The position numbers were made by a program, and so were the translations under genes. This document shows positions 1,462-60,581 of a stretch of DNA of 64,000 nucleotides, piece after piece. This stretch comes from a virus. Where the stretch lies: positions 85,877 through 149,876 of IMG/VR virus record IMGVR_UViG_3300027365_000009; one strand, 5' to 3'. The notes beneath the pieces were generated by a model, which was not told where the DNA came from, did no database searches, and saw nothing but the letters and a program-made list of their open reading frames with translations. Within the stretch, counting starts at the first letter, position 1. Every line of letters begins with the position of its first letter.

Positions 1462-4400
1462 ATGGCGGATAAAAGAAAAGACCTCGAAGAAGAGAACCTG
1501 GATTTACGGATTCTTGACCTCGATGCGTTAGACGATGAATTTGATTTTGATCCCCCGAAAGACGATAAACCCGTTAAACGGTTTGCGGTCAATTTTAAGC
1601 GGGGGTTTTTACAGCAGACCAAATCAAAAGTCCTGCTGCGCAATTTCTTACGCAGTTCTCTACCGGATGGTTATTCCCGACTCTGGGCTGCGGGTGAGAG
1701 TGCGTTCTCTAGCGGTAAGTCCACGGCAGACGACGTCTTCCGGGAAACCGCGCCTGAGCTGGACAGCATTGCCCAAAAGATGGAAGAGGTCTTGCCGAAT
1801 ATTGAAGGCAGGACACCAAAGCGTCTTTATGGGCGTATTGAAAAGGGAGTAGGACGTTTCCGTCGGGCGACTCAGGATCAACAAGACTCAGGATTCTCGC
1901 GTCGCACCCAGGCGGATGACGATAACAGCGAACTTGCCGACGCACTGGATGCGCTTAATGAAACATCGCGTGCTGAAGGTGAACAGGCGTCATTAGAAGC
2001 TGAAGAAAGACGCGTCCGCGATAAGCTGGACGCGGGGCGCTTTGACGTTCTGACGCGCCAGATGGACCGCATCGGGACGGGCGTTGAGCATCAGGTTTCA
2101 TACCAAGACCAGATTCAGTACAAGTTCCAACGCAAGTCCTTAGAACTTCAATACCGTTCTTATTTCGCACTGCGCGACCTGCGTAAGTTTGCAGAAGTCG
2201 CCCAAGACACGCATGAGACGGCTTACAACGCCCTGGTTCACAACAGTGCGTTACCTGATCACCTCAAAATGACGAAAAGTCAGCGGGTGAGGTTTGGAAC
2301 TCAGGACAGCCTCGTCGGTGCCTTGGGTACCCAGATGGCGGCCTCATTGCCTGGGTTCTTGGCTTCCTACTACCCCACCATTATGGAGAATATCCGTAAG
2401 AGTGCGGTGCAGGGCATTCAAGCTGCGGGCGGTATGCTCTCTACCACTGACATGATGAGTGGGATGGGCGGCGACAGCGCCAGCACCGCCGGTCAGGTCG
2501 CCGGAGATGTCGCTGGGGGCTTTTTCCGCAATACCCTGGTGTCACGGGCTGCCATGATGGCCAAGCCTGGTATGGAGCGTTTAGGGGACAAGCTGGGTGG
2601 TGGGCATCACGTAGTGTCCTATTTCCTGAATAACCTCCCCGCATTACTGCAGGAGTACACTCAGGATCACTCCCACTCCACCGGGTTCCGTGGCGTTATC
2701 CAACGGATGGTGCGTGCTATTGTCCCGTCCTATTACCAGGACGATACTTTAGAGGACGGTTCCTTTCAGACCATTGATCGACAAGCGGCCTTTAACCAGC
2801 TGACACAACGTTCCATCGTTGAGGTCATCCCCGGATACCTGTCGCGCCTCCTGCAAGAAACCCGGATGATTCGCACCGGAAGTGACGACGTCGAACGTGA
2901 AGTGTGGGATGTCACCACTGGTCAGTTCACTGGTTATAAAGCGGCGAGAAAAGCCCTTCAGGGTCGTGTCATTAATGAGGCCCAGCGCCGCAACATTGAT
3001 GCCACCCTTAATCAAACCGTCGAGAACTTTGATCCGGATGGCTACCTGTCCGACACGGCACGTGCTGTCCTGAAAGAACGGATGATGCGGGAAGCCTCCC
3101 GTAATGACCGTTTTGATCCCAACACCTATGCGTCGGGTGAAGGTTATGGGGAGGAGGTCGATGACGCCACCCTGAAGGAACTGACGTCGTTCTTTAAGGC
3201 CCAGTTCGATTTTGACGACCAAGGCAGTATGGTAGAGGACGCCGAAAACCGTCGGCGCCGTAATGCCTTTTCGGACGCCTTCCTGGAAGTACGTAATACC
3301 ATCCCCGACCCACGCGCAGAGATTCAGCGGATTTCAGGGGTGGGGATGCAAGAGATCCTCCACGACCTGGGACTGATGACCAGTGATTACGGTCGTAACC
3401 GGGTGAACTACGATCGTGTGTGGGATCTGTATCGTGGCGATGGTCCTTCAACGCCCAACCGTAGCGGTCCGCGTCCTGAGGGACCGATCCCCCGTACCCA
3501 AATCAAGACCGGGTATGACGAGAACGTTACCTTTAAAGAGTCTGTCCAACGGGCTAAAGAGGCGGCCAAGGAGAATCTGCGGTTCAAACGCCTGAAAATT
3601 GAACTGCCTAAGTTCGATGACGCGCTTATCAAGCGTCTACCTGAATTGGATGGGAAAACCCTCGCCAAAGTGGTGGAGTGGCGGCCTGAGCTGCTCGATG
3701 CATTAAAACGTATCGATGGGGATATTGAACTCCGCCTTGCTCCCCATATTGAGAAATTACGCCAACGGGGCAAACCGAAGAAACTGGATCGTGAGACCGC
3801 TGAAGCCCTGTGGACACTCGTATCAGAAAAATCCCGGCATGAGTGGGATGATGTAAAAGCTAAGGCCAAAAAGCACTACGATCAAGCGGAAGAGGCCACA
3901 CGGGATTGGCGGATTAATACCGCAAGCGATGTCCACGAAACCGTAGAGAAAGCCAAGAAAACCTGGGAAGGTGTTGACAAAGACCCTGAGTCTTGGAAAG
4001 AGAAGGCGGCCAAGAAAACTCAAGAAGAGAAACAGCGACTTAAGGAGACTTGGGAAAAGACCCGTACTGCAACTGAGGAGCAAACCGAGCAGCTCAAAGA
4101 GCAAGTTCGGGAACACACCGATCCGATGGTTGAGCAAACGCGTGAGAATGCGAATCGCTGGCGCGAAGAAGCCAGTCGTCGTTCGGAAAATATCCGTGAA
4201 CAGTTCGCCCAACGGGTACGGGATCCACTCCATACACCCAGCGATGAAACGACCCCCGGTTATGGTCAAACCGAATACGATCAATACGTCGATGGTATTC
4301 AGCGTATAGCAGAGCGGCAAGCGGAGACGTCCGATAACATCTTTACCCTGCTACGTGAAGAAATGCAGCGTGGCTTCAAGGTAAGGGAGCTTCCGGAACT

Positions 4401-7400
4401 AACGTTTGCCGATCAGGATGGTAACGCCACCAAAGCGAAAGGTAAGGCCAAACCTGAGAAGAAATGGTCATCCATCCTGAAACGGGGAGCTGATGGTATT
4501 GCGGGGTACTATAAGAACCTATTCCCGGGCATCGGTAAGGGGATGGGTGGTCTCGTTTCAGGTATGGGACGTGGTACGGGTGCTGTGTTCAGTGGAATGG
4601 GACGTGCTGTCGGCCGCATGATTGGCGGTAAAGAGGACGAGGTATTGCCTGATATCTACGTCAAGGCCCGTCCTGACACGCCTGTTCTGCTAGCACGTGA
4701 CATTAAAACCGGGCGTTATATTGACGCCAACACCAACACCGTTATCAAAAGTATTGATGACATCACCGGTGGGGTGTGGGATACCGTTGAAGAACGCATC
4801 GCCATCACCCATACTGAGTTTGAAGAGGGCCTTTTCACACGAGGAGGCGAGAAAATTAAAACTACTCGGGGCCCTGGGATTTTGGGTACCTTGGGGAGTT
4901 TTTATAACAACGCTTACCTCAAGCCCACCCTCTTTGCGGCAAAACAGCTCCCCAATTTAGGGAATGTGGCCAAAGACATGATCTTCTCCGAACGGGATGC
5001 GTATATTCCCGGGGAGAAAGAACCTCGGATTCGGGCGAACCTACTGAAAAAGGGGATTTATTTCGACCAAGCCACAGGTGATCCCATCACCCGCTATAAG
5101 GACATTTCGGGCACCGTGGTGGATGCCAACAACAACGTCGTTGTCAATGCTGCCGAAATCCCTCACCTGGTTGGTTATGACGGACGTCCTCTTGAGACAG
5201 CCGGTACTAAGCTAGGTGGGGTAGCCAAAGCCATCGGTGGGGCGTATGTGGGGGCCCTTAAAGCAGGATGGCACGCTACGAAATCGGTAGCGAAAGGTGC
5301 TTTTGATCTAGGCAAAGCGGTTTCGGATCGTGTGATTGGCATGATTCGTGGCAAGCGAGGGAAGCGTGATGAAGAATCCATGTCCCGTGAAGGTCAGATA
5401 ATCTCCATTCTGGGGGGTATTTACGACCTGCTCGATCAGCGTCTTCCTCAGAACCAAAACTTCCGTAAAGGGTCATGGCAGGAAGAACTTGCCAAACGAG
5501 CTGAAGAACGGGAAGAGGAGAAAGACTTCAAGGAAGAACAAGAGTGGCGAGAAGAAGGTATCTTCGGAAGAATTGGTCGTCGTCTAGGTGGTCTACTGGG
5601 AATGTACCAGGACCGTCAGGATACCCTCGATGAGATCGCCGAAAACACCGAAGACATGGACGATGGTGGGACTGACATACTCGCGACAGGTGGCGGAGAC
5701 GGTCCTGATGGCCGACGGCGTCCTGGTCGCACCCGACGTACCCCTAAGAAGCCTGCACCAAAAGGGTTTTGGCGTAAAGCCGCTCATTACGGCGGTAAAG
5801 GTTTCCGTAGTGTGGGTCGCGGTGCAGCGTCACTTGGACGCGGTGCCCTGAACCTGATGGGTATGGGAGGTCTCGCCAATCCGATCGGTCGTGCCGCCGG
5901 TGGTCTCGGTAAGGGTATGGCCTGGGCCGGTAAGGGTCTGTTCGGTGTTGGGGGCATGCTTGTCCGCGGTGGAGCAATGGCCGCCACGGGCTTGGTCAGT
6001 ATGTTGGGCGCCCCCGTGGTGCTCGCCGGTACTGCTGTCGCCGGTGCTGCGGCTGGCGGTTTTTGGTTGTGGAACCGCCACAAGAAGACGGCCGGTAAGT
6101 TCCGGCAGTTGCGTCTCGCTCAGTATGGTTTCCCCGAAGATGGTGGGTTACAGCGCCGGGTGGTTGCCCTGGAAAACCGCCTGGATGAGGTCACCCAACG
6201 CAATGAAGGTTCTGAGCCCACGCTGAACTTACCGGAAATCGACCCATTAGAGTTAATTGAAATAATGGGCATTTCAGAGGACGATGAACCCGCCCTTCTC
6301 GCCTTGGGGGATTGGTTTGCCAACCGGATGCTTCCCGTTTATCGCAAGTACCAGCAAGTGATGATGACCCACTTCCCCGATACCCCCTTGGGGGAATTGG
6401 ATGACGTGGTGGATCATGATACCGCAGGTGATATTCTGCGCATGGTCTCATTTAGCGACGGTGGGAGTAGTCCTTACCAAGTGCGTGCTAATCCCTTCGA
6501 TCCCGAGACCCCACTGCCGGATGTCACATCCATTATTGAAGAACGTAAGGAGGCAATTCGTAAGGAGTATGATACCCCGGAAGCGGTACGTGACGCTTCC
6601 CGTGCAACCACCGCAGGGGCGGGAAGTACCGCGGCAATCATGACGTCAGTTAATCATGCCGTCGTACAAGCCCGTGAACGTGAGCGACGCAATAGACAGG
6701 CTGAACAGCAAGGAGGGCGTCAGGTATTTGGTAACGTGGGAGCTACTGCTGCGTTAGCGGTTGCGGGCGCTACTAACGTTACTGAACTGGCGAGTCGCCG
6801 CGCGGCGATCCCCGAGTACCGTCGCATGACCGGTAGTAACCTCACGGCCCTTCAAGCCATGCGGGTGCGGGGGTATGGCCTAGTTGACCTTAACCGGTCA
6901 AAGGTCATTGCGCTACTGACCCTTGAGGATACGGTAGTCCCTTACTTAACGTTCAGTGGGGATGGGACAGTTGCCTTTGAGGGGAGTATCAATGATGTTT
7001 TCCGTGAGGTTGCGCCCCTCTTTGGTCTATCGTTGTACGGGTCATCCACAGGGGACGAAACACGAACCGACAAGGAAAAGTTCCGTTTGTGGTTTAGGAG
7101 TCGCTTTTTGAGTGTCTTCCTCACCTACGTCAGTGCAATCCGGCAGATTGACGAAAACGTCGGTATCCCGAACGCGGAGCGTCGATTGGATGACATTGGT
7201 AAACTGGACGTCGGAAAGAGCCTGTACTCCGCCACCTGGGAATCGCGGGAGTCGGGTACCATGTCGGTTTGGGAAGTTCCATGGTTGATCTTTGATCAGC
7301 CCGCGGCCTTCTCTGCCAAGGAATTGGCGAAGATGGAGTTGATGGTATTGGAACAGGCAGTGAGTGGCGAAACCGTAGGGACAGCCGCACAAAGTGCAGA

Positions 7401-8922
7401 GCAGGCACGTCAACAGGCCCAAGGGAATGTAGCGCTGTCGGCATCGGCAATCAATTCTGCACTCCAAGTCGCTAACAGTGGAACGTCATCTCTCGCCTCA
7501 CGTCATCTCCAAGCCTCACGAACTGCAGTGCAACGGGCACAGAACCGTTGGGGAACCGCAGGAGTCGAACCCCCTCGGCGGCCCGGTGGTACCGCTGGCG
7601 CGTTAGGAAATACGTTCTCCGGTATTGTCCAAGGAAATGGAGGGCAGTGGGAGGAGGTCCCCATGCCGCGCGCTAATAAATCCAAGGAAGCCGCGTTACC
7701 GACACTTCAGGCGGTAGAAGCCATGACGGGTGTTGATGCCAACCTTCTCATGACGTTCGCCTCGATTGAGTCGGCGTTTGATTACACGGTAAAGGCACCG
7801 ACTTCATCCGCCACTGGGTGGTTCCAGTTCATTGACGCCACCTGGGATGGCATGATCGAACAACATGCCGACAAATATGGGATTCCTCATACCGGCATGA
7901 CCAAGAATGCCATTCGGGAAATGCGTAAGGACCCCCGTATAAACGCCTTGATGGGGGCGGAGTTCTTGAAAGGGAACTACAAGTACCTGGAACGAAAATT
8001 GGGACGCAAACCCACCGATACCGACCTCTACCTGGCGCACTTCTTTGGTGCAGGCACCGCATACAAGTTCTTGAAGGCGGACCAGAACGCTGTTGCGGCA
8101 AATCTGTTCCGTTCTCAAGCGAACTCTAACCGGAATATTTTCTACCGGGGCGGTCAGCCACGCACCATTGCTGAAGTGTATCAGGTCATGGACGAGAAAG
8201 TGTCGGGACATCGGTTTGGTGGAACCAGCGCCTCTCGTACAGTGGATATGGATGAACCTGATCCGGTGTCGGTTCCGGAAGGGGCGTCCATGGAAGCGGC
8301 GAATGATCCCGAAGCAGGGGATGCGGGGATTATTGAAGAGGGCGGTCGTGAGATGATCCAGCTGGCGCCAGAAGGGGTTAACAATCACCTTCAGGGTGTG
8401 GATAACCCCATGCTGACAGAAGGGCAACGAAATGCCCATCGGCGGCGGCAATCGACCAGTAGTCGCGTTGGGTCAACCATCAATCCAGCAAACGCCGCAG
8501 TGGCGGGCGCTGGCTTGGGTGGACCACTAGGTCAAAACGCCACACCACCGACTGGGGGTAGATTCTACGGGGCGATCGACTCCGATCCTCAGGATGACCC
8601 CGTGGTGCGTCAGCGGGAACGCCAACGCCAACAGGCGGAGGTGGCAGATCTCCAACAGCGCGAGCTTGCCGATCGAGATCGGGAAACCAACCGGAATGTG
8701 GGTCGTGTTCTCAGTCGCCAACTGGAAGTCCAGCAAACGATGGCGGATTACCTTAAAGCTATCGCGGAGAATATTACAGGTGGGGCGCGGGAATCCACGA
8801 CGACGGAACGTCAGGACGACCGTCAGAATCGCAATGATTCCAGTCGGCCCCCTGAACCGCGTGGGGGTGAACGACGTCAGCATCACGTACCGCCCATCAA
8901 CATGAGACGGAATTCTCCGTAA
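1462..8922 (+). CDS. Giant virion protein with C-terminal SLT lytic transglycosylase domain (phiKZ gp181-like)
   Basis: The protein has 2486 residues. The start ATG follows CGGAGGA at good spacing. Residues about 793-933 are a highly charged, probably coiled-coil stretch. Residues about 1440-1540 are Gly/Ala-rich and end in a hydrophobic segment (MLGAPVVLAGTAVAGAAAGG) that could insert in a membrane. Residues about 2090-2210 form an SLT (goose-lysozyme-like) fold with catalytic-type Glu in FASIES (E2103), then ATGWFQF and LAHFFGAG. The C-terminus (2370-2430) is rich in Gln/Arg/Glu and probably helical. The size, the SLT domain and the position beside an RNAP beta' gene match phiKZ gp181, a virion protein thought to open peptidoglycan during DNA entry. 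A tape-measure-like role is possible but not shown. Confidence 0.85.
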   Translation: MADKRKDLEEENLDLRILDLDALDDEFDFDPPKDDKPVKRFAVNFKRGFLQQTKSKVLLRNFLRSSLPDGYSRLWAAGESAFSSGKSTADDVFRETAPELDSIAQKMEEVLPNIEGRTPKRLYGRIEKGVGRFRRATQDQQDSGFSRRTQADDDNSELADALDALNETSRAEGEQASLEAEERRVRDKLDAGRFDVLTRQMDRIGTGVEHQVSYQDQIQYKFQRKSLELQYRSYFALRDLRKFAEVAQDTHETAYNALVHNSALPDHLKMTKSQRVRFGTQDSLVGALGTQMAASLPGFLASYYPTIMENIRKSAVQGIQAAGGMLSTTDMMSGMGGDSASTAGQVAGDVAGGFFRNTLVSRAAMMAKPGMERLGDKLGGGHHVVSYFLNNLPALLQEYTQDHSHSTGFRGVIQRMVRAIVPSYYQDDTLEDGSFQTIDRQAAFNQLTQRSIVEVIPGYLSRLLQETRMIRTGSDDVEREVWDVTTGQFTGYKAARKALQGRVINEAQRRNIDATLNQTVENFDPDGYLSDTARAVLKERMMREASRNDRFDPNTYASGEGYGEEVDDATLKELTSFFKAQFDFDDQGSMVEDAENRRRRNAFSDAFLEVRNTIPDPRAEIQRISGVGMQEILHDLGLMTSDYGRNRVNYDRVWDLYRGDGPSTPNRSGPRPEGPIPRTQIKTGYDENVTFKESVQRAKEAAKENLRFKRLKIELPKFDDALIKRLPELDGKTLAKVVEWRPELLDALKRIDGDIELRLAPHIEKLRQRGKPKKLDRETAEALWTLVSEKSRHEWDDVKAKAKKHYDQAEEATRDWRINTASDVHETVEKAKKTWEGVDKDPESWKEKAAKKTQEEKQRLKETWEKTRTATEEQTEQLKEQVREHTDPMVEQTRENANRWREEASRRSENIREQFAQRVRDPLHTPSDETTPGYGQTEYDQYVDGIQRIAERQAETSDNIFTLLREEMQRGFKVRELPELTFADQDGNATKAKGKAKPEKKWSSILKRGADGIAGYYKNLFPGIGKGMGGLVSGMGRGTGAVFSGMGRAVGRMIGGKEDEVLPDIYVKARPDTPVLLARDIKTGRYIDANTNTVIKSIDDITGGVWDTVEERIAITHTEFEEGLFTRGGEKIKTTRGPGILGTLGSFYNNAYLKPTLFAAKQLPNLGNVAKDMIFSERDAYIPGEKEPRIRANLLKKGIYFDQATGDPITRYKDISGTVVDANNNVVVNAAEIPHLVGYDGRPLETAGTKLGGVAKAIGGAYVGALKAGWHATKSVAKGAFDLGKAVSDRVIGMIRGKRGKRDEESMSREGQIISILGGIYDLLDQRLPQNQNFRKGSWQEELAKRAEEREEEKDFKEEQEWREEGIFGRIGRRLGGLLGMYQDRQDTLDEIAENTEDMDDGGTDILATGGGDGPDGRRRPGRTRRTPKKPAPKGFWRKAAHYGGKGFRSVGRGAASLGRGALNLMGMGGLANPIGRAAGGLGKGMAWAGKGLFGVGGMLVRGGAMAATGLVSMLGAPVVLAGTAVAGAAAGGFWLWNRHKKTAGKFRQLRLAQYGFPEDGGLQRRVVALENRLDEVTQRNEGSEPTLNLPEIDPLELIEIMGISEDDEPALLALGDWFANRMLPVYRKYQQVMMTHFPDTPLGELDDVVDHDTAGDILRMVSFSDGGSSPYQVRANPFDPETPLPDVTSIIEERKEAIRKEYDTPEAVRDASRATTAGAGSTAAIMTSVNHAVVQARERERRNRQAEQQGGRQVFGNVGATAALAVAGATNVTELASRRAAIPEYRRMTGSNLTALQAMRVRGYGLVDLNRSKVIALLTLEDTVVPYLTFSGDGTVAFEGSINDVFREVAPLFGLSLYGSSTGDETRTDKEKFRLWFRSRFLSVFLTYVSAIRQIDENVGIPNAERRLDDIGKLDVGKSLYSATWESRESGTMSVWEVPWLIFDQPAAFSAKELAKMELMVLEQAVSGETVGTAAQSAEQARQQAQGNVALSASAINSALQVANSGTSSLASRHLQASRTAVQRAQNRWGTAGVEPPRRPGGTAGALGNTFSGIVQGNGGQWEEVPMPRANKSKEAALPTLQAVEAMTGVDANLLMTFASIESAFDYTVKAPTSSATGWFQFIDATWDGMIEQHADKYGIPHTGMTKNAIREMRKDPRINALMGAEFLKGNYKYLERKLGRKPTDTDLYLAHFFGAGTAYKFLKADQNAVAANLFRSQANSNRNIFYRGGQPRTIAEVYQVMDEKVSGHRFGGTSASRTVDMDEPDPVSVPEGASMEAANDPEAGDAGIIEEGGREMIQLAPEGVNNHLQGVDNPMLTEGQRNAHRRRQSTSSRVGSTINPANAAVAGAGLGGPLGQNATPPTGGRFYGAIDSDPQDDPVVRQRERQRQQAEVADLQQRELADRDRETNRNVGRVLSRQLEVQQTMADYLKAIAENITGGARESTTTERQDDRQNRNDSSRPPEPRGGERRQHHVPPINMRRNSP

Positions 8923-11322: not shown

Positions 11323-11628
11323 TTAGACCACGAGTTCTAATACGGGTCTCCAACCAATATCCGAAAGCATGTACGACGAAGTATTCGTCTTGAAGTTCGT
11401 CAAGGAAGAACGACCCCGGTAGACACGCCGTGAGGCGTCTGACGCCGAGGTCTCCTGCACCCACGACGCGCGTCCGTACCCCGACCCCACGCCAATGTCT
11501 CCATTGGTGTAGGATGCCCAATGGGTGCCGGTGGGGTCGTCGACGTGGACGCGGTAGATCAAGTCGTTCCATTCACCCCCTAAACGTCCTCTTCTTGGTT
11601 TAACAAAAAAAAAACGTGTCCGTCACAT
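11323..11628 (-). pseudogene. Remnant of tail-fibre-tip gene (C-terminal domain only)
   Basis: On the minus strand an open frame with no usable start encodes GGEWNDLIYRVHVDDP..., ending DIGWRPVLELVV. This aligns over about 85 residues with the C-termini of the proteins at 41795-42550 (GGEWNRLMYPIHIDDP...GWRPVLRSVE) and 52584-53417 (SEWNRLLYPVHRDDP...GWRPVLELIE). Upstream in the same frame the sequence reads ATG, TGA, then codons for RTRFFF. The intact paralogue starts MRTRFL, so the middle of about 165 residues may have been lost and the N-terminus joined to the tip domain; this N-terminal match is short and could be chance. It lies alone between a terminator and a plus-strand gene. Confidence 0.7.
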
Positions 11629-41794: not shown

Positions 41795-42550
41795 TTACTC
41801 AACGGATCGCAGCACCGGCCGCCAACCATGGACGGCGACAGCATAATCTGTTCTTACTGAACTGAAGGCCGTCAAGGAAGAATGACCACGGAATATTCTA
41901 TCCCCGTAGGTATCGGTTTCACTTGCCGATGTCCAAGTGGCTCGCCCATCTCCCTCGCCAATAGATAAATCGCCATTCGTATAGTTAATACCCCACTCCA
42001 AACCGTCCGGATCGTCAATATGTATTGGATACATCAGTCTATTCCACTCACCCCCAGGACTCGATGCTGGATTGGTATCACCGCCAGTGAGTAGGGTGAC
42101 TTTAAAAACATTATCATTTACCGTGACCGTTGAGGTGCTACTATTTTCAACTGTCAGATGCTGGTCGTTAATCTCCCGCGCTGTAATTGTGTGGCGAATG
42201 GGTTTCTTCGCCACGTAAACCACACGTCCATCTAGACTAAATTTCAACCACGCTGACTCGGCGTCATGTTGTAGGGTCCCGGCACTCAAGCCCACTTGGT
42301 ACGACAAGGAACTATATGTTATAAAATCAGAACCGACTATTTCGCCGTAAAATCCTGTTAGTTCGTCGCCTGCAATTATGGTGGACCCCGGAGGTACATA
42401 GGCTTGAGTCCCGAGGATCTCAAAACACCCTAAGGTACTCCCGTCGTGCAACCTGAGTGCACGCTTCTCCAGATCGATAGAAAGCTCCCCATTGGGAAGT
42501 GTCAAGCCATTATTCTGTGTCGTATCGCCTCTCAAGAAACGCGTTCTCAT
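41795..42550 (-). CDS. Tail-fibre-like protein, intact paralogue
   Basis: 251 residues from ATG 42550 (GAGGAG 7 bases upstream). N-terminus: MRTRFLRGDTTQNNGLTLPN, followed by GELSIDLEKRALRLHDG, a common opening of phage fibre or receptor-binding proteins (GEL.ID...LR.HDG.T). Middle: beta-rich. C-terminal domain of about 85 residues: GGEWNRLMYPIHIDDP ... GWRPVLRSVE, shared with the remnant at 11323 and the amber-broken copy at 52584. It lies behind the tube genes but is separated from them by a terminator hairpin (42579-42598), so its expression may be regulated apart. A receptor-binding role is inferred. Confidence 0.7.
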   Translation of the reverse strand: MRTRFLRGDTTQNNGLTLPNGELSIDLEKRALRLHDGSTLGCFEILGTQAYVPPGSTIIAGDELTGFYGEIVGSDFITYSSLSYQVGLSAGTLQHDAESAWLKFSLDGRVVYVAKKPIRHTITAREINDQHLTVENSSTSTVTVNDNVFKVTLLTGGDTNPASSPGGEWNRLMYPIHIDDPDGLEWGINYTNGDLSIGEGDGRATWTSASETDTYGDRIFRGHSSLTAFSSVRTDYAVAVHGWRPVLRSVE

Positions 42551-42578
42551 AATCTTACTCCTCAAAGTCTTCATAAAA

Positions 42579-49541: not shown

Positions 49542-51200
49542 ATGGCTGAACCACATAAGACGTTCTACCGGGACCCCGATCGGGGGTTCCGTATCTGGAA
49601 CCGCGATGAAATCGTCCGCGATGACGGCGGGGGTCGTTGGGTTCCCAATGTTGGGGACCTGGTGTTTGATCCTGACCAAGGCTTCATGCAGGTCATTGAG
49701 GTCGATTACACCACCGGGTACTCCGTGCTGAAACTCTGGCAGGCTCCCGCTGAACCTGAAGAGGCCGAAGTCGAGGATGTCCTGCTGGGTATCGGGCCCG
49801 GCTACGCGTCCGAGTCCTATCGGATTTTCCTGGACCAGTCGGTGACGCCCCATATCCTGGCCCCAGATAGCCGTCTGCATTTCTACGGCTCCATGGTTCA
49901 CTCTTACAAGGTGTTTCTGGGAACGGACATCAGTGAGGAATACGGGAAAGTTATCTCGTCGTTCTTTGATCCGTCTGGGAATTTCCTGGGTAATGCCATT
50001 CCGGTTGAGTCCATTGAGGTCCCTGGGGCCACCAACCAGGTGATCAAGGCCCCAACCGTAGGGTACACCAGCGAGGCGATGGAAGACGGTGAGATCGTCA
50101 CGCTGGTGGCCTATGACGACGAGGGGGGTGTGGTGTCGCGTGCGCAGCTGCTCGTGAACAACACCGAAGCGATTCGTCAGGGTGAAGCGTCACGTAAATA
50201 CGTGAAAGCGATCCAGATTGATTCGCCATTTGTGAGCAGTGCTGACCCGCAGACCATCGAGTTCCCAATTAACGTCACTGTGGAATCCCTACCCATGACG
50301 GGGGTGGTCCACTATAGTGATGGTAGTCGGATTCGTCTACCCATTGATGGCTCGAAGTTCACCCTGTACGGCTTACGTAACTACGTGGCGACCATTGTAG
50401 GGCAGGAGTTCCCTATGGTACTCGCTTACAATATGGCCGAAGATGAGATTTCCTATAACCTGGAACCGTCAGCTAACCGTCGTCTGACCATGTCGTATCA
50501 GGCACGGACAACGACCGCCGATGGGTCGTACGAAGTCAAGCTCTTCGTCTACCCGGTGTGGGTCAGCGAAGCGGTGGGTTACCGTCTGGAATACTGGCTC
50601 TATAACCTGGATCGTCAGACCTACTACAACGTCACGCCGTACATTGAACTGGGCACAACCTCCGCGCCGTTTAACCCGACCCAATACGGTACGACCCAGA
50701 CCATCACGGTGGCGTTGGATCTCAATAAGGTCGATGGTAAATTCGCACCGTATCGTCACGTACAGACCTTCCAGATCGCCCTGCTGTCTCGTGGGGACCA
50801 GAACCAGGATAACTGGATTATCTACTTTACCCCGGATCAAGTCGACGGCTTTGGGCGGAGCGTGAAGGCGGAAGTAGAGTACGTCAATACCAACTATTGG
50901 CACCTGCGTCTGGATCAAGGTCTGCCCTCGAAAGAACTGTGGCTGAAGGAACTCTATGAACGAGTAGAGCCGCTGGTGAATAGCCAGGTCGAAGCGTGGG
51001 CGCCCGTCCCCACCCACTTCGTGGTCAAGACCCTCCACAATACTTACGAGTTTAGTGTGGAGCAGTGGAACGAAGAGTTGGTCATTAACAACGATCTGGA
51101 TGAAGGTGAGCTCCTTTATGTACATTGGATTCGTAAGAACTATGACACCTCACTTCAGTTGGCTGTTACTGCCCTTCCCATTCACCAAATAGGTAATTGA
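49542..51200 (+). CDS. Structural protein, 552 aa (phiKZ gp26-like by position)
   Basis: ATG 49542, two bases after the previous stop, with GAGGTTAATC upstream. N-terminus HKTFYRDPDRGFRIWNRDEI; repeated beta patterns (GDLVFDPDQGFMQVIEVDYT) suggest a jelly-roll or Ig-like body. No catalytic site. It is the last gene of the block and is followed by a terminator shared with the opposing HNH gene. Confidence 0.7.
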   Translation: MAEPHKTFYRDPDRGFRIWNRDEIVRDDGGGRWVPNVGDLVFDPDQGFMQVIEVDYTTGYSVLKLWQAPAEPEEAEVEDVLLGIGPGYASESYRIFLDQSVTPHILAPDSRLHFYGSMVHSYKVFLGTDISEEYGKVISSFFDPSGNFLGNAIPVESIEVPGATNQVIKAPTVGYTSEAMEDGEIVTLVAYDDEGGVVSRAQLLVNNTEAIRQGEASRKYVKAIQIDSPFVSSADPQTIEFPINVTVESLPMTGVVHYSDGSRIRLPIDGSKFTLYGLRNYVATIVGQEFPMVLAYNMAEDEISYNLEPSANRRLTMSYQARTTTADGSYEVKLFVYPVWVSEAVGYRLEYWLYNLDRQTYYNVTPYIELGTTSAPFNPTQYGTTQTITVALDLNKVDGKFAPYRHVQTFQIALLSRGDQNQDNWIIYFTPDQVDGFGRSVKAEVEYVNTNYWHLRLDQGLPSKELWLKELYERVEPLVNSQVEAWAPVPTHFVVKTLHNTYEFSVEQWNEELVINNDLDEGELLYVHWIRKNYDTSLQLAVTALPIHQIGN

Positions 51201-51207
51201 CAACATA

Positions 51208-51233
51208 AGCGGAGGGCATTAATGCCCTCCGCT
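51208..51233. terminator. Bidirectional terminator between convergent genes
   Basis: AGCGGAGGGCAT / ATGCCCTCCGCT around TA, followed on the plus strand by CTTTATTT. It lies between the structural gene ending at 51200 and the HNH gene ending at 51236. Confidence 0.85.
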
Positions 51234-51235
51234 CT

Positions 51236-52417
51236 TTATTTCAAAAACACAACGTCTATTCCAGGCAATGTATTCTGTTGAGCTTTGTATCTCACCCAAT
51301 GCGTGGGATTATCATATTCTTCCGATAGTTCATGAACACTCAAATAATACTTAACTTCGCCTGTTTTATTATTACGTGTTTTCAGTGGATGTGCTTTACC
51401 GGGGATACCTAACAAACTTATTTGGATTTGGTCTTCGTTATAAGGCAGAAATTCTTCGTTTTTGTGAGGTCTTCTGATATGATGACCTTTTAGGAAACGT
51501 GCGCGCCCACTGTCCAACCATCCGCTCAATTGGTTTTCTGTTATTTCTAAATAATTAATAACCTCCCTACTCGTGGAAAATACCCGGATAGTATCGGTTA
51601 GATAATTCTTAACTTCAAAAGTACCCCCACGGCTAGCTCTTCGCTGGCTGTATTCTTTGACTGAATCATCAATGTCTTTTTTATTGATTCCATTTAATAT
51701 TTTTCTCCATGATTTGTCACCATGTCTGAATATAATCCATCCATTGACCAAAATGCTCTTTTCTAACGATTCTCTTAGTCTCGTATCGGATAACCCCGTC
51801 ATGAAACTAAGTTCAAATATCGAGTTAGCTGTAATTGAAATATTGTTCGATAAATTAAGTGCAAATACGGGAATGCGTCTTTTAAGTTGAACTGAAGAAT
51901 ATTTTATTACGCTCACTATAAATTTATCGAGATAGGGCTGCCTGCTGTTGTTATAAGTCCTTAATATCGAATACGCCTCATTTTTGGTTAAACCAAAGTA
52001 ATCCCCAAATTCACGCATGGAATAAAAATCTGTTATCTTCTTATCCTCAACATTAGTGATTTGTATATGTGTCGTTGATTTAATTAACCTGTTTCTAACG
52101 GCGTGTAATTTATTCTCCGTTGGTGTAGTCCATTCCACATTGTCTTTATGGTTATTATCTTTAATACCGTCCTTATGGTTGACATTTGTTTTATCCGGAC
52201 TATCGGGCATGCCGTGGAAGCTAAGACAGACTAGGCGGTGAACGGTCTTATTGTACCGTTTGCCATCACGGTAAGGGTGGACTCTAAGATAACCAAAACG
52301 TTTATCTATATATTGTTTGAGAAGTCGTCCGGTATTTTTTCTTCGGACTCTCCCGATTGACGAAATTTCATATAAAGGGAAGTCATACATGTCAACCCAT
52401 ATTTCTTCTTCACACAT
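51236..52417 (-). CDS. HNH homing endonuclease with repeated DNA-binding modules
   Basis: 393 residues, ATG 52417. NUMOD4-like start (MYDFPLYEISSIGRVRRKNT), then HNH core: HRLVCLSFHG, NVNHKDGIKDNNHKDNVEW (H-N-H with NHKDG.K.N....NLEW pattern). The C-terminal two thirds carry several NUMOD-like repeats (ALNLSNNISITANSIFELSF; VINYLEITENQLSGWL) that read DNA bases. Base composition is clearly more A/T-rich than the neighbours, a sign of recent arrival. It sits between a structural gene and a broken tail-fibre gene, next to terminase. A target in one of these genes is likely. Confidence 0.9.
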   Translation of the reverse strand: MCEEEIWVDMYDFPLYEISSIGRVRRKNTGRLLKQYIDKRFGYLRVHPYRDGKRYNKTVHRLVCLSFHGMPDSPDKTNVNHKDGIKDNNHKDNVEWTTPTENKLHAVRNRLIKSTTHIQITNVEDKKITDFYSMREFGDYFGLTKNEAYSILRTYNNSRQPYLDKFIVSVIKYSSVQLKRRIPVFALNLSNNISITANSIFELSFMTGLSDTRLRESLEKSILVNGWIIFRHGDKSWRKILNGINKKDIDDSVKEYSQRRASRGGTFEVKNYLTDTIRVFSTSREVINYLEITENQLSGWLDSGRARFLKGHHIRRPHKNEEFLPYNEDQIQISLLGIPGKAHPLKTRNNKTGEVKYYLSVHELSEEYDNPTHWVRYKAQQNTLPGIDVVFLK

Positions 52418-52495
52418 GTTCGTTTAATCCATTTAAAATATAAACCATATTATATGGCACTAGTATATTTTTGTTTGTTTAGGCCTGCAGCTCGC

Positions 52496-52563
52496 GGTAA
52501 CAGCGTTACCTGTTCATCAGGTAGGATCTTAACGACATAGTCGGGCCCTCATGACGAGGGCCC
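52496..52563 (+). other. Hairpin cluster upstream of the amber-broken fibre gene
   Basis: Three inverted repeats: GGTAAC / GTTACC (52496-52510), ACCTG / CAGGT (52508-52522, overlapping the first, so the two are mutually exclusive), and GGGCCCTC / GAGGGCCC with loop ATGAC (52543-52563). The last looks like a terminator and lies 20 bases before the ATG at 52584, as a terminator also lies before the intact paralogue at 42550. A switchable leader is possible. 52418-52495 is AT-rich and holds no gene. Confidence 0.45.
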
Positions 52564-52583
52564 CCTAATTGGAGTCTTTAGCA

Positions 52584-53417
52584 ATGAGAACACGGTTTTT
52601 ACGCGGGAATACCGCGGAGAATAATGGACTCACACTCCCGAACGGGGAGTTGAGCATTGATCTGTAGAAGAAAGCCCTCCGTCTTCATGATGGTCAGACC
52701 CCCGGTGGCTTTGAGATGGTGGGCCAGAAAGCTTACATACCACCTGTGGGGCCCGGACCCACCACCCTAGTCGCCGGCGACACCGCGGCGGGCTTTTATG
52801 GTGAGGTAACTGGGGAGGAACTGATAACCTATGGGGCGTTATCGACGTCGGTAGGACTGTCTGCCGGTACTCTTATTAATGATTCTACATCGGTGTGGCT
52901 CAAGTTTGCCCTTGATGGAAAAACATTATTTATTAGTAAGAAACGCGTACGTAATGAAATTAGTTGGGAGGATATCTACAATATAGGTGCGGTTTATGGA
53001 ACGGGGGACACCGGCACGCACCCCATTAACGGAGGAGTTATTCAGGATCGAACGGTAACCATCGGACAAAACATCTTTAAAGTCCGCAATTTGAAAGGCG
53101 CCGCGGAAGACCCAGTCCCTAATCTCGCCTATGCCACTCATACCGACCCAATTGAAACAGCAGGCTCCGAGTGGAACCGACTACTTTACCCCGTACATAG
53201 AGATGACCCAGCGGGTTGGGCAACGTACAATAATGGGGATTTAGAATTCGGCACCGGTGTTGTTAGTTATGGAAGTCATGTACAAGAAACGTTTGAAACC
53301 GATACCACAAAACGCATATCCCGTGGGGTAAATGGCTACAATACCTTAGGGGGTGTGGAACTCACCACTAACCGTGTCATTGAGGGTTGGCGTCCCGTGT
53401 TGGAACTCATTGAATAA
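52584..53417 (+). pseudogene. Tail-fibre-like protein interrupted by one amber codon
   Basis: From ATG 52584 the frame reads MRTRFLRGNTAENNGLTLPN, GELSIDL, then TAG at 52665-52667, then KKALRLHDGQTPGG and on to a stop at 53415. The intact paralogue at 42550 has Glu (GAG) at that codon 28: one G-to-T change. The rest (277 codons in all) is open and ends with the shared tip domain GSEWNRLLYPVHRDDP ... GWRPVLELIE. So it is either a very recent pseudogene, or it is made by amber read-through or restart at a later codon. It lies beside the HNH gene and terminase. Confidence 0.85.
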
Positions 53418-57653: not shown

Positions 57654-60581
57654 TTACCACTTACCATAGGTGCCTTCCTTGAGGGCGTCGTAGAGATTGG
57701 CCACGACATGCTCCTCTCCTTCGTAGATGACTTTCTCGTTGCCTGCCAACTCCACCTTCTCGCCGTTCTCCAACGTGAAGATATACGAGGTATCCTTCAG
57801 GTCATCTTCGCGCACTAAGACGCCCTGGAAAGCGGTTGGGTTGAACCGAAAAGTGGTTGCGCCCTTCAGCCCGCGCTCATAAGCGTCCAGGTACAGGTTC
57901 TCGAAACGCTCAAAAGCGAAATCCGTCGGAACATTCACCGTCTTGGAAATGGAGGAATCAATCCAATACTGGGACGCGGACTGAATCGACACGTGCTCTT
58001 CTGGGGTGATGTCATCGGAGACCACGAAGTAATCGGGGAGATCCTCTTCAGTGGCGTCAGGCTTCACGAAGTGGCGATAGGCGAGCAGTTCGAACGAGAC
58101 AACTTCCACCTGTTCTTTCGTCTTCTTACCCGACTGGATGATGTTGCGGTAGTAGCGATGCGAGAACGACGGTTCAATGCCATTGGAGGCATTATTGCCC
58201 AGAGACAGGGAGATAGTGCCTGTCGGCGCAATGGAACTGTGGTGGGTAAATCGCGCACCCACTTCCGCCAGTTCCGCTACCAGTTCGGGATTGGCTTTCG
58301 CAATGCGCTTCATGTACTCGCTGTACTTGGCATGCAGAATACGACCCGGGATCTTATCGCCCACTTCATAACCATCCTTCACCATTTCAGGACGCTGACG
58401 AAGCATCTTCGGGGTGACGGCAAACTCTTCGGTCATGATCGGTGCCGGGCCCTTCTCCTTGGCGAGTTGCAGGGCTTGTTGCCAGCCCACCAGGGCCAGT
58501 TCCTTGGTGACCTGGGTGGTGAAGCCCACAGAATCAACTTTACCGTAGGGCATCCCCAACATGGTCAGCGTAGAGCCCAGGCCCAGATACCCCATGCCAT
58601 GGCGACGTTTGGAAGTGATCTCCTTACGTTGATTCTCCAGGGGCAGGCCATTGATCTCCACCACATTGTCAAGCATGCGGGTAAAGATGGCCACCACCTT
58701 ACGGTAGCGCTCCCAATCGAAACGTGCCTTATCGGTAAAGGGATCAATCACGAACTTGGTCAGGTTCACTGACCCGAGCAGACACGCACCTTCTGGGGGG
58801 AGGGGTTGTTCACCGCAGTTGTGAACCAGAACCCCGTCATTATCTCCGGTGGCTACAAAGAAACGACTGAACTCGTCGACACTACCACAATAAACATCCT
58901 CGTTATAATCTAGAAACCGCACGCATTCTACCCGATGATTAGCTTCAGTAACGCGCTTGCGTACAGTATATGGGGAACACCCCAGTTGAGACGCGATCGT
59001 TCTATACGAAGCACCGCCCTCCCGCAGTTGAATCATTGTTTGGGTATTTAAATCGTTTCTATAACGACCGTTATTACCACCACTAAAATCAGTAGTTAAG
59101 AAGTGATTGCGTTCTGGGAAACGACGCATCGGATTTAAATCTCCGCGCATGTGCATTGAATTATGCTCGTTAGCCACCATTAATTCAATGTTCTCAGGTC
59201 TGTTATCCCATTTAATTCCATTTTTATGGTGTGCGTGATATCCATCAGGAACGCCATTCTCAAAAGGAACGTGGTGTTCTAAGGGCAAATGCTTCCCATT
59301 GGTTAGCCGCAAGTAACCTTTCTGATTTGCCTTATAACGGTAAACACTTTCAAGCGACATTCCGGGCTGAAGGTGCTGCGCCTCAACTTGACTGCCGTCT
59401 TTCAAAAAGAAGCGGTGTTCTGGTGTGCACCGTACCGTCTGACCATCGCCCAGAGAAACTTCGACTAAACGCGCATTTCGCTGGGTTACTCGAATATTGC
59501 GCATTGGGCGGTAAACCATTTGACCTTGGTGATTCTGAGTCAATACGTTTATATCAGTGCCCACTAACTGGTTGAATGGAATGTGTCCACGATCAGTCCA
59601 AACCCGAGTGTCTCCTGTGAAACATGGGTTCGTTGCGGTGATGGTCTCACACCACCAATTATTGTTCATGCGGTTGACCGCATCGATCAGGATAAAGCCG
59701 GGTTCTGCATAGTCATACGTCGAACGCATGATCTTCTTCCACAGGTCGCCAGCATTAATTCGTTGATACACCTTACAGGCCACCCGACCCTGATCGTCCA
59801 GGATGTAGTCGTCCTCAATGACCGGCCAATCGCGGTAGATGATGTCATCCTTAGACAGATCGTCGAACTCGGCTGCTTTGGTCGGGAAGACCAGGGGCCA
59901 CTCACTTCGGTTCTTGACCGCCTCCATGAACTCATCGGTAATGAGAAGGCTCATGTTGAATTGACGCAGCCGACCGTCTTCGCGCTTGGCGTCGATAAAC
60001 TCCTCGACATCGGGATGGGAGACATCAAACGTCGCCATCTGGGCACCCCTACGACCACCGGCAGAGGCTACGGTAAAGCACATCTTGTCGAAGATGTCCA
60101 TGAACGCAATCGGACCGTTCGTTCCAGCGCCAGCGCCATGAACGTACGCGCCGCGAGGACGGATGGTGCTGAATGAATACCCGATACCACAACCGGCTTT
60201 CAAGGTAATCCCCGCATCGGAGACCGCCGACAGGATCTCGGCCATGCCATCACGGACATTTTTGGAAACGGTACAATTTATAAGGGATACCGCGGTCTTA
60301 TGATCGGAGGCTCCGGCATTGGAGGTAATGCGTCCCGCGGGGATAGCACCATTCTCCAGCGCCCACAGGAACCGTTCTTCCCAGAACTCTCTTTCTTCTT
60401 CATGCTCGATACTGGCCAGTGTCTTGGCCACCCGCTTGTAGGTATCCTCTACCGTCTGGTCGACCGGTTCTCCATGACGATCCCGAAGGCGATACTTCGA
60501 ATCCCAAATATCATAAGAGGGTAACTGCATCGGGACATCATTGGTAGAATTAAGTTCCGGCTGCGAGACGTGTTCAGTCAT
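57654..60581 (-). CDS. nrdJ: Class II (B12-dependent) ribonucleotide reductase catalytic chain with intein
   Basis: 975 residues, ATG 60581; mature enzyme about 706 after loss of a 269-residue intein. It reduces ribonucleotides using adenosylcobalamin, independent of oxygen. Class II features: SLINCTV (first redox Cys, residue 103), GCGIGYSFS, AGGRRGAQMA, FNMSLLITD, NPCGEQPLPPEGACLLGS (radical Cys then second redox Cys), ATGTISL, and GATTFRFNP near the end. The intein interrupts NP/CGE, just before the radical Cys. The C-terminus (ANLYDALKEGTYGKW) has no Cys tail; that tail lies in the next gene. Late-type promoter motif 63 bases upstream. Confidence 0.92.
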   Translation of the reverse strand: MTEHVSQPELNSTNDVPMQLPSYDIWDSKYRLRDRHGEPVDQTVEDTYKRVAKTLASIEHEEEREFWEERFLWALENGAIPAGRITSNAGASDHKTAVSLINCTVSKNVRDGMAEILSAVSDAGITLKAGCGIGYSFSTIRPRGAYVHGAGAGTNGPIAFMDIFDKMCFTVASAGGRRGAQMATFDVSHPDVEEFIDAKREDGRLRQFNMSLLITDEFMEAVKNRSEWPLVFPTKAAEFDDLSKDDIIYRDWPVIEDDYILDDQGRVACKVYQRINAGDLWKKIMRSTYDYAEPGFILIDAVNRMNNNWWCETITATNPCFTGDTRVWTDRGHIPFNQLVGTDINVLTQNHQGQMVYRPMRNIRVTQRNARLVEVSLGDGQTVRCTPEHRFFLKDGSQVEAQHLQPGMSLESVYRYKANQKGYLRLTNGKHLPLEHHVPFENGVPDGYHAHHKNGIKWDNRPENIELMVANEHNSMHMRGDLNPMRRFPERNHFLTTDFSGGNNGRYRNDLNTQTMIQLREGGASYRTIASQLGCSPYTVRKRVTEANHRVECVRFLDYNEDVYCGSVDEFSRFFVATGDNDGVLVHNCGEQPLPPEGACLLGSVNLTKFVIDPFTDKARFDWERYRKVVAIFTRMLDNVVEINGLPLENQRKEITSKRRHGMGYLGLGSTLTMLGMPYGKVDSVGFTTQVTKELALVGWQQALQLAKEKGPAPIMTEEFAVTPKMLRQRPEMVKDGYEVGDKIPGRILHAKYSEYMKRIAKANPELVAELAEVGARFTHHSSIAPTGTISLSLGNNASNGIEPSFSHRYYRNIIQSGKKTKEQVEVVSFELLAYRHFVKPDATEEDLPDYFVVSDDITPEEHVSIQSASQYWIDSSISKTVNVPTDFAFERFENLYLDAYERGLKGATTFRFNPTAFQGVLVREDDLKDTSYIFTLENGEKVELAGNEKVIYEGEEHVVANLYDALKEGTYGKW
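58818..59624 (-). other. Intein with HNH endonuclease region inside nrdJ
   Basis: Residues 320-588 of the precursor. It opens with CFTGDTRV (block A, Cys1), has TPEHRFFL (block B, TxxH), and ends FFVATGDNDGVLVHN before C+1 (blocks F/G, ending His-Asn). In the middle, YHAHHKNGIKWDNRPENIEL is an HNH-type homing endonuclease, and MIQLREGGASYRTIASQLG continuing into CSPYTVRKRV is a helix-turn-helix. All splicing residues (C1, H of block B, HN, C+1) are in place, so it should splice. Insertion just before a catalytic Cys is typical of inteins, which choose sites that cannot be deleted. Confidence 0.92.

Follow-up and report, generated by a model that had tools for sequence, protein, structure and literature searches.

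The gene at positions 52584-53417 of the window encodes a putative Mtd-type receptor-binding protein of the tail-fibre tip, and its reading frame is interrupted by one amber codon (Table 1). The window, the whole 64,000-nucleotide stretch analysed, is C1:85877-149876 of a 149,876-bp IMG/VR record (C1), which is itself a fragment; coordinates without a prefix are those of the window. The frame consists of 27 sense codons, the TAG, 249 open codons and a terminal TAA. The counterpart of codon 28 is GAG in the paralogues at 41795-42574 and C1:11722, and GAA in that at C1:70663. An earlier note, made from the letters alone, had described this frame with its single TAG in place of GAG and its 249 open codons, and the translation and the paralogue codons agree with it. 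The gene is 45 to 52% identical to the four stop-free paralogues in the record over all 277 positions, spanning the stop, and up to 54% identical to intact copies in a relative. Since the homology continues across the TAG, the gene is a true homologue and not a chance frame. In the record, 21 of 2,363 TAGs are followed by at least 249 fully open codons, and 8 of these 21 have an in-frame ATG upstream.

The large terminase gene is 64 to 67% identical in DNA to those of Noxifer, Psa21, PhiPA3 and similar Pseudomonas jumbo phages, and PHROG assignment places the tail sheath and structural genes in families of the Pseudomonas jumbo-phage group. The phage is therefore phiKZ-like. Another IMG/VR contig, 3300009194_000005 (G012), overlaps record positions 1-70878 with a single mismatch, and 45.6 kb of further sequence lie beyond the record.

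Table 1. Features of the amber-interrupted gene, its surroundings and its family
Feature	Position	Strand	Basis or remark
Mtd-type receptor-binding (tail-fibre tip) gene with amber codon 28	52584..53417	+	ORF reading, paralogue homology, PHROG 1062/3589/16120, tblastn
Amber codon 28 (TAG), within the beta-prism domain	52665..52667	+	Frame translation, paralogue codons
N-terminal beta-prism domain, residues 1-44, presumed tail attachment	52584..52715	+	Pfam Mtd_N, PDB Mtd profile
Open frame of 233 codons that starts with the ATG of codon 45 and spans the complete tip domain; restart possible	52716..53417	+	AlphaFold, fold match, SD energy
8-bp stem preceded by CATA, recurrent intergenic element, not specific to fibre genes	52543..52563	.	
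Free-standing homing endonuclease, NUMOD4/HNH_3/NUMOD1	51236..52417	-	Domain search; 37% GC vs 52% in the genome
Stretch without counterpart in L004: HNH gene, hairpin region and fibre gene	51201..53417	.	
Intact paralogue cited in the earlier note	41795..42574	-	Family start is the frame from 42550; downstream of the tail-tube gene
Decayed paralogue, C-terminal ~90 residues and TR1 variable repeat, most of the gene deleted	11329..11600	-	
DGR 1 target, family member	C1:968-1819		
DGR 1 bAvd-like ORF	C1:1937-2272		Weak match
DGR 1 template repeat (TR1)	C1 about 2300-2389		
DGR 1 reverse transcriptase	C1:2554-3588		
DGR 2: target, bAvd-like ORF, template, reverse transcriptase	L177 (G012, IMGVR 3300009194_000005) 5501-8339	-	

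The low-GC island over the neighbouring homing endonuclease (HNH) gene ends near 52475. In L004, the closest relative by terminase (84% amino-acid identity), the homologue of the structural gene at 49542-51200 is convergent with the terminase gene, about 50 bp apart, and this junction holds neither the HNH gene nor the fibre gene. In L016, an HNH homologue (L016:4775-5917, 32%) has the same place and orientation after the structural gene, with no fibre gene there. The simplest reading of this arrangement would be two accessory insertions side by side, one a homing endonuclease and the other a receptor-binding gene. The relative G002 likewise has an HNH gene next to a family member, lying directly upstream of another receptor-binding paralogue (G002:C1:221156-221920; L077), so that joint mobility is possible. 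A connection between homing endonucleases and the spread of receptor-binding genes may exist. Homologous HNH genes occupy the same site in distant phiKZ-like phages (L016 and this window), and elsewhere in the window a ribonucleotide-reductase-like gene (57654-60581) has an intein-like insert containing an HNH motif.

Anchor and tip domains of the encoded protein

Residues 1-44 of the amber gene are MRTRFLRGNTAENNGLTLPNGELSIDL, the amber codon and KKALRLHDGQTPGGFE. When a family profile was compared with the PDB, residues 4-47 of the amber gene aligned with residues 6-49 of BPP-1 Mtd (1yu0-1yu4; E 1.5e-5). Pfam Mtd_N matched the amber copy itself at E 4e-4 and 20.7 bits, under the cut-off of 26.3. 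By its predicted N-terminal beta-prism, the protein would belong to the Mtd-type receptor-binding proteins. In BPP-1, trimeric Mtd is presumably held on the tail fibre by the beta-prism (PMC10743442). Residues 45-277 form the tip domain of PHROG 1062 (E 4e-44), which tblastn found to be common to many phiKZ-like virion proteins. The earlier description of the gene as tail-fibre-like is borne out.

AlphaFold modelling of the ORF from ATG 52716 with 57 homologues gave a confident structure (pLDDT 95.3, pTM 0.91), superseding an earlier model from 10 sequences that was poor in the tip. The best fold match of the tip model was gp70 of Erwinia phage Rebecca, a 233-residue virion protein (TM 0.83) with a separately annotated gene. 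Among PDB structures, Treponema denticola TvpA (2y3c) came first, a DGR variable protein with a C-type lectin fold of the formylglycine-generating enzyme (FGE) type, and several formylglycine-generating enzymes and PvdO followed further down. A C-type-lectin fold of the tip is only suggested by the model, because the matches to TvpA and FGE-fold proteins are weak (TvpA: E 5.5e-3, TM 0.23).

BPP-1 Mtd, which was the best fold match of the full-length model, shares with the amber gene an N-terminal beta-prism and the architecture of an anchor with a C-terminal receptor domain; relatives of the amber gene in the same phage are, like Mtd, targets of diversity-generating retroelements (DGRs). However, Mtd has 381 residues compared with 277 here, the tips are unrelated at the sequence level, and the amber copy has the amber codon and no recognisable variable repeat. 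The virion proteins of PHROG 1062/3589/16120 (PhiPA3, PhiEaH1, Noxifer, Rebecca gp70) have the same tip domain, but most of them are missing the Mtd-type N-terminus that is present in the amber gene.

Family copies and diversity-generating retroelements

A scan for related loci with the single amber-gene protein gave nothing, and a family alignment was used in its place. The 149.9-kb record holds at least five full-length family copies including the amber copy; the other four are intact, and a fifth intact full-length copy is on the overlapping contig G012, so that all five non-amber copies are without interruption.

Two complete DGRs target this receptor-binding family, one on the record and one on G012. 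DGR 1 (C1:968-3588; L068:968-3588) has the order target, bAvd-like ORF, template repeat and reverse transcriptase, and its template and variable repeats differ at 12 positions, 10 of them template adenines (p 7e-5). In DGR 2, where the bAvd-like ORF was matched at E 2.4e-6, 16 of the 17 differences are at template adenines (p 8e-9). The paralogue C1:70660-71544 carries a second, remote variable repeat of the DGR 2 template, with 15 differences (12 at adenines). The decayed paralogue at 11329-11600 has a TR1-like variable repeat with 16 differences, of which 9 are at adenines (p 0.02), and the 3' end of the intact paralogue at 41795-42574 is still partly similar to TR1.

The 3' end of the amber copy scored at shuffle level against both TR1 and TR2. 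Since it matches neither template, the amber copy belongs to the family without being a DGR target at present; the targets are C1:968-1819, C1:70660-71544 and the L177 copy. A DGR as the origin of the amber was rejected as well: no variable repeat lies anywhere near codon 28, the altered base does not correspond to a template adenine, and there is no template match. The switch between two fibre versions suggested in the earlier note undercounts the family, which has at least five full-length copies; variation does exist in this family, but it comes from DGRs that do not act on the amber copy.

An RVT_1 search in 11 phiKZ-like relatives found no reverse transcriptase, so that these 11 records are without a DGR, compared with two in this phage. 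Among the matches listed for the DGR reverse transcriptase there was no jumbo-phage isolate. A 2021 survey of 224 jumbo phages reported none of the C-type-lectin (FGS) domains that DGRs diversify (PMC7824862).

Upstream hairpins and the proposed read-through of the amber codon

Upstream of the gene, two stems overlap (GGTAAC/GTTACC at 52496-52510 and ACCTG/CAGGT at 52508-52522), while the 8-bp stem is separate. The region as a whole did not fold significantly better than its shuffles (z -1.5), and an Rfam search of it found no match. At least 26 intergenic hairpins of a similar kind are flanked by CATA or TATG, the strong 8-bp stem among them. Of the 44 hairpins in the record with a stem of at least 8, CATA precedes 19 and TATG follows 15, in each case within 10 nt, compared with about 2% for random positions. 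CATA-hairpin-TATG elements occur throughout the record, for example at window positions 51208, 52543, 53427, 55677 and 60712, and the pattern also follows the upstream structural gene in relatives. Since TATG is the phiKZ late-promoter motif (PMC4666361), the hairpins are probably terminator/promoter junctions, in which back-to-back late start motifs would surround terminators. The mutually exclusive stems noticed earlier do exist; the cluster, however, is largely a recurrent intergenic element. Because the strong stem is of a common kind in this phage, a fibre switch is not needed, and we rejected the hairpins as such a switch.

It was also proposed that amber suppression in a suppressor host would give host-range variation. 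Regulated read-through or suppression in certain hosts would produce the full-length protein, and the sequence is indeed preserved before and after the stop. The amber is followed by A, a context in which UAG is comparatively leaky. However, a tRNA search, which the earlier note had suggested for finding a suppressor, found no tRNA gene in about 195 kb of this phage, made up of the record and the part of G012 beyond it. TAG is an ordinary terminal stop in 16 of the 124 greedy gene calls, four of these genes having at least 300 aa, and in the record a median of 29.5 codons separates TAG from the next other stop, which argues against stop-codon recoding or an alternative code. The comparison at codon 28, likewise suggested earlier, showed that no other family member, in the record or in relatives, carries the stop, and no relative covers this codon of the locus; programmed read-through thus has no counterpart in the family. 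Neither a known RNA family nor a significant fold was found nearby. From the sequence, suppression of amber 28 is unlikely, although a tRNA gene outside these 195 kb or a suppressing host may exist, and we regard regulated read-through as highly improbable.

Age of the lesion and state of the amber copy

The tip of the amber copy keeps 16 of 16 invariant and 36 of 38 near-invariant columns, no worse than the intact copies, as the earlier note had anticipated in calling it well preserved. Apart from codon 28, the N-terminal 43 codons match the family consensus wherever a consensus exists. A stop would result from 3.8% of the single substitutions possible in these codons; on this basis, the lack of a further stop in 250 codons bounds the neutral divergence since the amber at about 10% or less from stops only, and at about 3% or less if indels are assumed to be ten times rarer than substitutions. 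The absence of decay around the amber means that the stop is recent, or wrong, or that the gene is still used, in line with the earlier view of a stop that is either very recent or tolerated. Of the earlier interpretation, then, the gene type, the single amber, the preserved tip and the recent or tolerated stop are upheld, and suppression and the hairpin switch are not. A literature search on premature stops in tail fibres found no paper with the terms used.

That the stop is wrong would require an error in the consensus or the assembly, or the assembler's choice of a minority variant, the gene being intact in the population. Codon 28 is known from a single metagenomic contig: a pattern scan of the codon-28 region, allowing any base at that position, found no other record containing the codon, and G012, which is 99.999% identical, ends before it. 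The five other full-length copies in the phage, four on the record and one on the overlapping contig, are all intact, as an error would lead one to expect. On the other hand, the two assemblies differ at one base over their 70,878-bp overlap, though reads may be shared, and the other large genes of the window are without interruptions. We consider such an error rather unlikely.

The reading that we consider most probable is a nonsense allele of recent origin, the affected Mtd-type receptor-binding paralogue being redundant and part of an accessory insertion. The amber at codon 28, which lies inside the beta-prism, would have arisen by one substitution in the very recent past. A stop there would abolish tail anchoring and leave a fresh null or near-null allele for the tail-anchored protein. 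With at least four further full-length copies intact, some of them DGR-diversified, the phage could tolerate the loss. Its place next to a homing endonuclease, in an accessory insertion that the closest relative lacks, would likewise make the copy expendable. We infer loss of anchoring, dispensability and recency from this pattern. The copy would accordingly class as a pseudogene or null allele by its disrupting lesion relative to intact homologues and its dispensable locus. Taken alone, the amber is probably a routine lesion that has recently struck a redundant gene.

The nonsense allele may still yield a residual tip protein of 233 residues from ATG 52716. A further alternative is that the locus is now a stand-alone tip gene, translated from this ATG or restarted there after the 27-codon leader, and without an anchor. 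The ATG at codon 45 is present only in the amber copy, the sole copy with an early stop, and the confident fold model covers exactly the ORF 52716-53417. Natural tip-only genes exist in relatives, namely Erwinia phage Rebecca gp70 (233 aa) and L119 (205 aa). The SD-like energy of ATG 52716 (-5.1 kcal/mol) beats that of most internal ATGs (median -2.5, 10th percentile -6.1). It is, however, weaker than at strong starts; a strong SD is absent, GGTGG being the only element, and the ATG could be a chance substitution among I, V and M. Moreover, the N-terminal 43 codons are undecayed though they would be free to drift. Because both sides of the amber are undecayed, recency is favoured over long tip-only use, and a stand-alone tip gene is possible but unlikely. 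Our order of preference is a recent nonsense allele, then a sequencing error, with a tip-only gene possible and suppression unlikely.

A second family copy is likewise broken between anchor and tip: in G002, the copy at C1:60384-61135 (L073) is frameshifted exactly at the anchor/tip border. The two breaks are suggestive but too few to conclude from. That they reflect a recurrent, selected switch between tail-anchored and free tip proteins in phiKZ-like genes of this DGR-targeted family seems to us very unlikely.

The family is of more interest than the amber, since in a phiKZ-like jumbo phage it brings together Mtd-type receptor-binding proteins in at least five full-length copies, two complete DGR cassettes and dispersed variable repeats, and it opens the birth and death of hypervariable receptor-binding genes in giant phages to direct tests. 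Turnover of the family in these phages is shown by the frameshifted G002 copy and by the deletion remnant at 11329-11600, the start region of which reads ATG TGA CGG ACA CGT.
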